Assembly (NCBI GenBank): GCA_018970395.1
Contig: JAGWWM010000005.1
Span: 1 to 64,000 of the forward strand
Length of the DNA stretch: 64,000 nt
Direction: 5' to 3'
From: Bacteroidota bacterium
Lineage (GTDB): Bacteria > Bacteroidota > Bacteroidia > Chitinophagales > Chitinophagaceae
Shown here: positions 10,289 through 28,595 of the stretch, piece after piece
Numbering within the stretch: position 1 is the first letter of the stretch
Layout: each line of letters begins with the position of its first letter
Notes under the pieces: generated by a model
What the model was told of the DNA's origin: nothing
Seen by the model: only the letters and a program-made list of their open reading frames with translations
Databases searched by the model: none
Made by a program: the position numbers and the translations under genes

Positions 10289-10351
10289 ACAACCTCCAAC
10301 CCACAACCTCCAACCCACAACATACAACATACAACTTACAACCTCCAACCC
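10289..10351 (+). repeat. nine in-phase ACAACCT-type heptads ending 2 nt before a start codon
   Basis: acaacct ccaaccc acaacct ccaaccc acaacat acaacat acaactt acaacct ccaaccc cc ATG. Confidence 0.95.
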
Positions 10352-14726: not shown

Positions 14727-14758
14727 TATCCCCCTCTGGAGGGGGACTAAGGGGGAGG
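14727..14758. repeat. C5/G5 palindromic repeat
   Basis: TATCCCCCTCTGGAGGGGGACTAAGGGGGAGG. Confidence 0.9.
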
Positions 14759-14802
14759 AATTCAAAGGTTTCATTATCGGTTGTTTGTTGTTGGGTTAGA
14801 AG

Positions 14803-22113: not shown

Positions 22114-22460
22114 GCGTCATGTTGATTTTCCAAGGGGCGTCATGTTGAGCGACAGCTAAACATCTCTCGATTGTTATGTGTCCAAAATGATGAGATCCTT
22201 CGCTTTCGCTCAGGATGACGTACTTAAAAGATGGAGAGATCCTTCGCTTTCGCTCAGGATGACGTAATTGAAAGAAGTCGGGATTGAAAGTGATGTATCC
22301 ATTAATAATGTCATGTAGATCTTTCAAGGGGCGTCATGTTGAGCGATAGCGAAACATCTCAAAATGGGGGTATAGAGCTATAAATATGAGATCCTTCGTT
22401 TACACTCAGGATAACGTACTTAAAAGATGGAGAGATCCTTCGCTTTCGCTCAGGATGACG
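22114..22460. repeat. cluster of paired-hairpin repeats in two tandem units
   Basis: Pairs at 22138-22220 and 22332-22416; extra arms at 22236-22264 and 22432-22460 within identical GTACTTAAAAGATGGAGAGATCCTTCGCTTTCGCTCAGGATGACG. Confidence 0.92.
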
Positions 22461-22468
22461 CATTTGTT

Positions 22469-22765
22469 TTACCAGTTTTTTATATCTTCCCATAAATCTC
22501 TCCATTCCGGATTAATGGAGTTTATGAGATCAATTTTAAAAGATCTCCTTTTGCCTTTAAAGTATTTTTCAAAATTAATTGCTTCAATGATACTATTGTA
22601 GCATTCAAACCAAACTAACTTATCACATTTGTATTTCGCAGTAAAACTTTTTGGATACACTTTCTCTTTATGTTCCCTTATGCGAGCATGTAAATCAGCA
22701 GTTACACCAATGTATAATACGCTATGATTTTTATTTGTCAAGATATAAGTACAGCCACCTTGCAT
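22469..22765 (-). CDS. GIY-YIG domain nuclease (UPF0213-like)
   Basis: GCTYILTNKNHSVLYIGVTADLHARIREHKE...YKCDKLVWFECYNSIIEAINFEKYFKGKRRSFKIDLI. Confidence 0.93.
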   Translation of the reverse strand: MQGGCTYILTNKNHSVLYIGVTADLHARIREHKEKVYPKSFTAKYKCDKLVWFECYNSIIEAINFEKYFKGKRRSFKIDLINSINPEWRDLWEDIKNW

Positions 22766-22903: not shown

Positions 22904-23893
22904 TTGATCCTCCGCCCCCCCCATACTACCGAACTCCCCGCCATCATCCAACTCCTCAAAGCCTCTTTGGGGGACGGGTCGAGTGAGAAGTCTGAACGTT
23001 ACTGGAATTGGAAGCATGTCAATAATCCTTTCGGCACATCCCCTGTATTGGTGGCAGAAGAGAATGGTGAACTGATTGGCATTCGTGCCTTCATGCGTTG
23101 GGACTGGCAGATGGGTGATAAAATATATCGCTGTTTGCGTGCCGTGGATACCGCTACGCATCCTGATCATCAGGGCAGGGGCATCTTCAAAAAACTCACT
23201 TTACAATTAATTGAGGAAGCAAGTAAACAGGGTTACGATTTTATATTCAACACGCCCAATACCCAAAGCACTCCAGGTTACCTCAAGATGGGTTGGAAAA
23301 CCTGGGGGAAAGTGCCTCTATGGCTTCATCCGGTGGTAGTATTCAAAAAACCGGATATGCAGGTATGGGAGAAGTGTAAACAGGATTTACAAGATTTCAA
23401 TTTTGCAAACACCAAAATAAGGAGTTTTATCCCCCTTAGGGGGGGGATTCAGGGGGGGGATGTTCATGAAGACAATAATCTTTTCACTCCCATCACCCCC
23501 CAATGGCTTGCCTGGCGCTACCGTGATTGTCCGGTGAAGGATTATGGTTTATTTCAATATGTGCACAGAGGAAAAGAAGTACACCTTTTCTTCTGCTTAA
23601 AAGGGAGTGGGCTCAAAACAGAATTAAGAATTTGTTCAACTGTTTTTAATGATAAATTTGATTTAAATTTACTGACTAGAGCATCCAATAAATTAGCCCG
23701 TGCCATCGGCTGCAGGATCGTAACCTGTGGCGGATTGAGCGAAAGCATTTCTGCAAATCAATTATTCAACGGCTGGTTCTCTGTTCGCAAATGGAGTGTC
23801 ACCGCCACTGTTCGCAATATTCCCACCGGTCGCTATCTTCCTGATGAACATACCCAATGGCTGATGCAGACGGGGGATATGGAATTATTTTAA
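22904..23893 (+). CDS. GNAT family N-acetyltransferase
   Basis: LVAEENGELIGIRAFMRWDW...AVDTATHPDHQGRGIFKKLTLQLIEEA. Confidence 0.85.
   Translation: MILRPPHTTELPAIIQLLKASLGDGSSEKSERYWNWKHVNNPFGTSPVLVAEENGELIGIRAFMRWDWQMGDKIYRCLRAVDTATHPDHQGRGIFKKLTLQLIEEASKQGYDFIFNTPNTQSTPGYLKMGWKTWGKVPLWLHPVVVFKKPDMQVWEKCKQDLQDFNFANTKIRSFIPLRGGIQGGDVHEDNNLFTPITPQWLAWRYRDCPVKDYGLFQYVHRGKEVHLFFCLKGSGLKTELRICSTVFNDKFDLNLLTRASNKLARAIGCRIVTCGGLSESISANQLFNGWFSVRKWSVTATVRNIPTGRYLPDEHTQWLMQTGDMELF
23428..23460. repeat. C5/G-tract palindromic repeat inside a CDS
   Basis: TATCCCCCTTAGGGGGGGGATTCAGGGGGGGGA in the GNAT gene. Confidence 0.75.
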
Positions 23894-28054: not shown

Positions 28055-28595
28055 TATCCCCCTCTTGGAGGGGGACTTAGGGGGAGGATAAGAAAGTTGT
28101 AGGACGAGTCAGGGGGAGGACTTTAGATCGATGACTCTCTCAGTAATCCAATTTAATATAACTTCTTTAACAGAAGCTATATTATTTAATACCTCCTCGT
28201 CAGTAAATCGGAGAATCTCAAAGCCAAATTCTCGAAGAACTTCTTCACGGTTACGATCATTTTTTATGACAATTTCATCCAAATGTGTTATGCCATCCGC
28301 TTCAATAATTAACTTTAATGCCTTACACATAAAATCAGCGATATATTTGAGTATAGGACGCTGCCTATTGAATGTATAGCCATGCATCATTCCCGCTCTT
28401 AAAGCGTATTTCCATAAGCAGACCTCTGCTTTTGTCATTCTTTTTCGAAGTGCTCTGGAATAATCTTTTAGTCTTGGGTTATAAAAAGAGTTGGAGTAAA
28501 AGTGATTTAAGTGTTTTTTCATGGTTTATTTTGTTAGCGTTATATGCAAAGATAACCAAATTTCCCTCCCCCTTCGCCCCCTCCAGAGGGGGATA
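28055..28595. mobile_element. candidate REP-like unit: DUF559 endonuclease gene bracketed by inverted palindromic repeats
   Basis: Left TATCCCCCTCTTGGAGGGGGACTTAGGGGGAGG (28055-28087); right, reverse complemented, TATCCCCCTCTGGAGGGGGCGAAGGGGGAGG (28565-28595). Confidence 0.5.
28109..28522 (-). CDS. DUF559 (Vsr-like) endonuclease domain protein
   Basis: LRKRMTKAEVCLWKYALRAGMMHGYTFNRQRPILKYIADFMCKALKLIIEADGITH...RNREEVLREFGFEILRFTDEEV. Confidence 0.93.
   Translation of the reverse strand: MKKHLNHFYSNSFYNPRLKDYSRALRKRMTKAEVCLWKYALRAGMMHGYTFNRQRPILKYIADFMCKALKLIIEADGITHLDEIVIKNDRNREEVLREFGFEILRFTDEEVLNNIASVKEVILNWITERVIDLKSSP

Follow-up and report, generated by a model that had tools for sequence, protein, structure and literature searches.

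Inverted triplex-motif repeats around DUF559 nuclease genes: a candidate homing-like element in bacteria

A DUF559 gene between inverted repeats

The window analysed here is a 64,000-nucleotide stretch of DNA from a Bacteroidota bacterium of the family Chitinophagaceae (assembly GCA_018970395.1, contig JAGWWM010000005.1, positions 1 to 64,000 of the forward strand). Two copies of a C-run hairpin repeat lie in it in inverted orientation, with a DUF559 gene as the sole gene between them (Table 1); this bracketing, described in an earlier note on the same DNA, is confirmed as real. Shuffling of the window gave an expectation of 0 copies of the repeat, and the chance of two independent copies flanking a given gene, each no more than 100 bp away on its side, is about 3e-7 at the density of the repeat in the genome. 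As the earlier note had also stated, the last codons of the gene (TCC TCC CCC TGA) fall within a partial repeat. These parts probably make up a single, complete small mobile unit composed of a triplex-motif repeat, the DUF559 gene and an inverted triplex-motif repeat.

Table 1. Positions of the element and of solitary repeat copies in the window
Feature	Position	Strand	Description
Left repeat	28055-28088	+	TATCCCCCTCTTGGAGGGGGACTTAGGGGGAGGA; C-arm, loop, G-arm, loop ACTTA, third G strand; by anatomy a purine-motif intrastrand triplex motif
DUF559 gene	28109-28522	-	137 aa; YcjD-type, Vsr/EDxHD-like nuclease fold, from open reading frame (ORF), PF04480 and structure model
Partial repeat	28112-28119	-	GGGGGAGG on the + strand; provides the final codons of the DUF559 gene
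Right repeat, inverted copy	28565-28595	-	TATCCCCCTCTGGAGGGGGCGAAGGGGGAGG; second loop CGAA
Solitary full repeat copy without nuclease gene	14727-14759	+	
Degenerate solitary repeat copy	23428-23461	+	CCCCCTTAGGGGGGGGATTCAGGGGGGGG

Two free copies had been proposed for the window; the one at 14727 is a full copy and the one at 23428 is degenerate only. A strict pattern for the repeat found 14 copies in the 2.417-Mb genome, nearly all of them intergenic, and a reversed control pattern found none. Two of the 14 form a gene-free inverted pair with a gap of 15 bp. When relatives were searched, as the earlier note had suggested, the pattern was nearly absent (2 copies in one genus-mate, 1 in one order-mate and 0 in 58 others), and the free copies therefore behave as a genome-specific repeat variant. 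No nuclease gene of the genome other than the DUF559 gene of the window is flanked by the strict repeat; a second DUF559 domain lies in frame within HsdS, a type I specificity subunit, and is edged by repeat-like DNA of another kind. Low-complexity short repeats of the CCTACAACCTACAACCT type also occur between genes of the window (10295-10351, 17589, 18737, 19933, 23910, 24265, 28007 and 54785), one of them immediately preceding the left repeat of the element.

In all three intact hairpins of the window, the G-run that follows is a mirror image of the purine arm with 0 mismatches over 7-8 bases, and these hairpins appear, by their anatomy, to be complete intrastrand-triplex motifs. A C-arm, loop, G-arm, loop and mirror G-strand make up the potential intrastrand triplex (PIT) or triplex motif (TM) repeats (Hoyne and Maher 2000, 2002; Holder et al. 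2015, PMC4666352), which are widespread in bacteria, either solitary or in inverted pairs, and near which Holder et al. found no mobility gene (PMC4666352). Judging from their sequences, the DUF559-flanking repeats are members of this known class, the arms of the window repeat (CCCCCTC/GAGGGGG/GGGGGAG) being a sequence variant. The strict TM_ECO sequence, CCCTCNCCC N3-6 GGGNGAGGG N3 GGGNGAGGG, is not matched by the window copies, and they are a different variant from the TM_ECO single strands that form a triplex in vitro (PMC4666352). Over all DUF559-flanking hairpins, a third strand with at most one mismatch was present in 92 of 231, as compared to 6.3 expected after shuffling, and the arrangement was inverted at 15 of the 17 loci having a single orientation on each side. 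A rule by which the two flanks differ in the type of their second loop (ACTTA on the left and CGAA on the right in the window), stated for inverted pairs in E. coli, proved inconsistent over the loci.

The window protein matches PF04480 with 110.5 bits (cut-off 20.6; E=4.8e-32). Residues E74, D76, G77, H80, D89 and R92 occupy invariant or nearly invariant columns and resemble an active site (E-x-D-G-x2-H, then D and R). An AlphaFold model (pLDDT 85.9, pTM 0.78) found its best Foldseek match in 3hrl, the DUF559 protein NGO0050 of N. gonorrhoeae (E=1.2e-7), and also matched the catalytic domain of the homing endonuclease I-Bth0305I, 3r3p (E=8.9e-4, TM 0.53/0.71). By sequence, a profile of 46 relatives matches 3r3p as well (E=1.9e-4), and YcjD had been predicted to be a Vsr-related PD-(D/E)XK protein (PMC1189080). 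By model and profile, DUF559 proteins share the Vsr / I-Bth0305I fold, with I-Bth0305I as the nearest characterised fold.

Recurrence of the pairing across bacterial phyla

The association was examined with a test that is blind to the repeat, in which the 300 bp to the left of each DUF559 domain were compared with the 300 bp to the right for an inverted match, using windows of the same size from the same loci as controls (n=4176) and the control 99th percentile as the threshold. Inverted flanks reached this threshold at 53 of 80 loci from mixed phyla, whose flanks had not been inspected beforehand, and at 18 of 29 relatives, whose flanks had. The 80 loci were chosen by similarity to one query, and so are not a random sample of the DUF559 family, and they span Bacteroidota, cyanobacteria, Gammaproteobacteria, Patescibacteria, an Actinomycetota metagenome-assembled genome (MAG), Geobacter, Desulfobacca and a Ruminococcaceae MAG. 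A second test, with a definition picked after inspecting flanks, required on each side, no more than 250 bp away, a hairpin whose stem is C/T only; such hairpins were found at 48/80 and 12/26 DUF559 loci versus 1/3035 control positions, and at 40 of 71 DUF559 genes versus none of 238 length-matched ORFs. The pairing is also seen in annotated records from Deinococcus, Azospirillum, cyanobacterial plasmids and N. gonorrhoeae. The association is general across bacterial phyla. The earlier note had proposed testing whether DUF559 genes lie between inverted copies of the repeat more often than random genes do, and had named a lack of enrichment across genomes as the contrary outcome; what was found is very strong enrichment between inverted copies of this repeat class across phyla, and the interpretation of the note is thereby supported.

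These counts bear on the most ordinary explanation, that the hairpins are transcription terminators or that the pairing is a coincidence. Hairpins near short genes are generally common. However, the control counts already contradict this explanation, and the hairpins also lie within coding frames and are translated, making it highly improbable.

Other nuclease genes behave differently. C/T-stem hairpins were present at none of 22 Y1_Tnp (RAYT-type) genes in ten genomes of the window's family, which have other repeats, and a RAYT/Y1 transposase was rejected as the partner of the repeat. None of 23 GIY-YIG genes had C/T-stem hairpins either. As a separate observation, a GIY-YIG gene of the window (22535-22756, - strand) adjoins a cluster at 22116-22466 of the repeats GAGATCCTTCGCTTTCGCTCAGGATGACG and GTCATGTTGAGCGATAGCGAAACATCTC, which have many copies in the window, and inverted flanks above the threshold occurred at 5 of 23 GIY-YIG genes (four genomes) versus 3 of 409 controls, with repeats of the ACCCTGAGCGGAGTCGAAGGGT type. 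GIY-YIG genes and these repeats possibly form a parallel nuclease-repeat system.

Within the family of the window, DUF559 is present in 133 of 247 genomes; it occurs in 49 of the 55 genomes having one repeat type versus 84 of the 192 without that type. The DUF559 gene of E. coli, ycjD, is located between sapF and fabI with TM_ECO-type repeats directly downstream, and the locus is present in 3367 of 5426 genomes. At sapF-fabI (L251-L253), ycjD is missing from about 38% of E. coli genomes; in three of these that were inspected, the place immediately upstream of fabI is taken by a resistance-nodulation-division (RND) efflux operon and a TetR regulator.

In-frame insertions and the aroC site

Among the matches listed for the family of the window, 88 of 150 DUF559 matches lie within open frames of at least 330 aa. 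The host domains recognised by Pfam, around the insert or fused beside it, are those of chorismate synthase, leucyl- and methionyl-tRNA synthetase, methionine synthase, CinA, type I restriction R and S subunits, Lhr-type helicase, acetylglutamate kinase, HisA-type and M23 proteins; aroC, leuS, metH, metG and hsdR are among the host genes with in-frame inserts, and a cyanobacterial HsdR (L088) holds one as well. The repeats at the edges are translated in the frame of the host (for example, LTPNPSPKERG ... SPSPLGRELEGG). Neither an intein family nor a Hint splicing domain was found in 13 Pfam scans of fusion proteins, and the DUF559 domain apparently resides inside essential enzymes in frame and unspliced. 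One HsdR gene (L050, 842-1860) has two in-frame nuclease domains, a GIY-YIG domain flanked by CCTGTCTGC...CAGGCAGA repeats and a DUF559 domain flanked by triplex-type hairpins.

Several allele states were found at one such site. In species of one genus, aroC occurs either as an empty allele (KKLM|TGVSIHAEV) or with about 160 extra codons inserted in frame at the same point. At this insertion point one genome (G016) carries a collapsed repeat, CCTCACCCCCAACCCCTCTCCACAGGAGAGGGGGGTAGGGGGTGAGG, in tail-hairpin-tail order, the form that would result if the gene had been lost by recombination of one hairpin with the other, and two others (G076 and G095) carry degenerate remnants. Exact collapsed double-tailed repeats number 3 in the 247 genomes, one of them being that at aroC, and they were therefore rejected as a common form. 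In the pair G012 and G004, the inserts are 91.0% identical versus 84.5% for the 3' parts of aroC, and the aroC gene of each is closest to an empty allele. In other pairs, the insert evolves at least as fast as aroC, and the 91% identity therefore points to transfer of the insert. With the limited resolution of 100 columns, a tree of 52 DUF559 domains groups many insertions by host gene, with one clade mixing aroC and leuS insertions. Together, the alleles and the tree look like site-directed spread with an occasional switch of host gene.

A different reading is that DUF559 acts like a transposase, excising or copying the unit bracketed by the repeats, which would be its recognised ends, and pasting it at new sites in a manner similar to IS200/IS605 or RAYT (REP-associated tyrosine transposase, REP being the repetitive extragenic palindromic sequence) but with a Vsr-type nuclease. 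Consistent with it are the inverted repeats at both ends, host sites that are many and unrelated, and the gene-free pair of repeats 15 bp apart, which resembles an internally deleted unit; in TnsA, moreover, the fold superfamily already has a member that works in transposition. However, insertions that recur across genera at identical positions in the same genes suit site-directed homing better, the nearest characterised fold is that of a homing endonuclease, and no target duplication was seen in the aroC alleles, where boundaries are blurred. We consider transposition of this kind unlikely.

DUF559 might instead be a passenger or a structure-processing repair nuclease, the triplex motifs spreading by other means and trapping the gene as recombination hot spots, or the gene being kept to process the structures. 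Triplex motifs have been tied to local instability in E. coli (PMC4666352), and the repeats do occur without DUF559. On the other hand, the other gene classes tested lack the association (0/238 ORFs, 0/22 Y1_Tnp and 0/23 GIY-YIG), and neither the inverted geometry nor in-frame insertion with repeats at both edges would be expected from trapping. The repeat variant and the nuclease are, moreover, genome-specific together. A passenger or repair role is quite unlikely.

A homing-like reading and its place among known systems

The best reading, to which we assign a probability of roughly 0.6, is a homing-like nuclease element that uses triplex-type repeats. As the pairing recurs across phyla, and within essential genes too, these repeats have in the nuclease a strong candidate for their spreader. 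The DUF559 nuclease would nick or cut DNA at the repeat, probably when this is extruded as a hairpin or triplex on single-stranded DNA, and repair from a nuclease-bearing copy, with the repeats serving as homology, would insert the unit. Recombination between the two hairpins would delete the gene and leave a solitary repeat as a scar. Units landing in frame in loops of essential enzymes would persist because only precise loss would be possible. What the data show is the association and its breadth, the inverted geometry and triplex anatomy, the in-frame insertions, the change of host gene, the allele states at aroC and the nuclease fold; the genome-specific repeat variant and the co-occurrence of DUF559 with one repeat type in the family also speak for this reading. 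That the nuclease recognises and cuts the repeat, that repair takes this route and that the nuclease causes the repeats to spread are steps that we infer.

Several observations weigh against this homing-like reading. The case for homing at aroC depends mainly on the pair G012-G004, in which the left flank of G004 is short, and the empty and filled alleles show no clear target-site duplication, with blurred boundaries. For the insertion in the window itself, no empty allele was found in genus-mates, where the surrounding gene cluster is not conserved. A clean empty ycjD site in E. coli was rejected as well, since absence of ycjD coincides with the RND efflux operon and tetR in its place. In a spread sample, ycjD-positive E. 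coli have a median of 20 other repeat-like places versus 7.5 in ycjD-negative strains (p=4e-10), a difference that favours the reading but is confounded with lineage, and ycjD-negative strains still carry repeats. One genome that is 99% complete (G077) has 9 repeats and no typical DUF559 gene, and another (G270) has 30 repeats with DUF559 only in a divergent form; such repeats without a typical DUF559 gene weigh against the nuclease as a simple driver. Perhaps they are relics; alternatively, the nuclease may exploit repeats that spread otherwise. In G270 (L192-L207), several of the approximately 30 near-identical triplex-type repeats lie inside a longer repeated unit, ATACCATTTAGACAGCTAAATCATGCATCG...GAATTGCGGTGTTCATTTTAGC.

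More tentatively, and at slightly less than even odds, DUF559 and the triplex repeats may represent a pan-bacterial class of mobile elements, separate from DDE, HUH and known homing systems, in which the nuclease recognises a repeat folded as a triplex or hairpin, spreads itself together with the repeats, and can live unspliced in frame in essential enzymes. Triplex-motif repeats have been catalogued since 2000 without an origin or a partner gene, and DUF559/YcjD proteins are widespread without an assigned function; the link between them offers both a testable role. The pair is present in the model organism E. coli K-12 as well as in N. gonorrhoeae, and a crystal structure is available (3hrl). 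An apparently unspliced nuclease domain in frame in chorismate synthase or leucyl-tRNA synthetase would, if true, be an unusual route of persistence for a selfish gene, and such inserts could be mistaken for natural domain architecture. The repeats and the DUF559 family were each already known; in the open-access literature that was searched, no earlier account of their link, of the bracketing or of the in-frame insertions was found.

Among known systems, in-frame palindromes in housekeeping genes are a feature common to the DUF559 insertions and the Rickettsia palindromic elements, which are palindromic repeats inserted in frame into such genes and for which we know of no driver gene. Terminal inverted repeats are shared with insertion sequences and miniature inverted-repeat transposable elements. 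REP/REPIN-RAYT systems also have short palindromic repeats, solitary or in inverted pairs, around one nuclease gene. The earlier note had drawn this analogy, of which the functional likeness stands; it does not extend to the partner, as Y1 genes of the same family lack these hairpins, and the gene between the repeats is DUF559, with a nuclease fold different from that of Y1 HUH enzymes. The GTAG/CGTC tag of the REP foot is absent from the 14 genome copies, the ends of which are TATCCCCC and GGGGGAGG.

I-Bth0305I resembles DUF559 in the fold of its catalytic domain and, apparently, in that both repeatedly occupy the same site in conserved genes. Unlike I-Bth0305I, DUF559 has no surrounding intron or intein and has bracketing inverted repeats, and the open frame runs through the insert. 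With neither an intron or intein nor a Y1 transposase, the element, which is functionally closest to homing endonucleases and REP/RAYT, lacks defining features of both. The window protein has its family and fold in common with NGO0050 (3hrl), and the window repeats share their anatomy with the PIT/TM motifs, which here bracket DUF559 genes.
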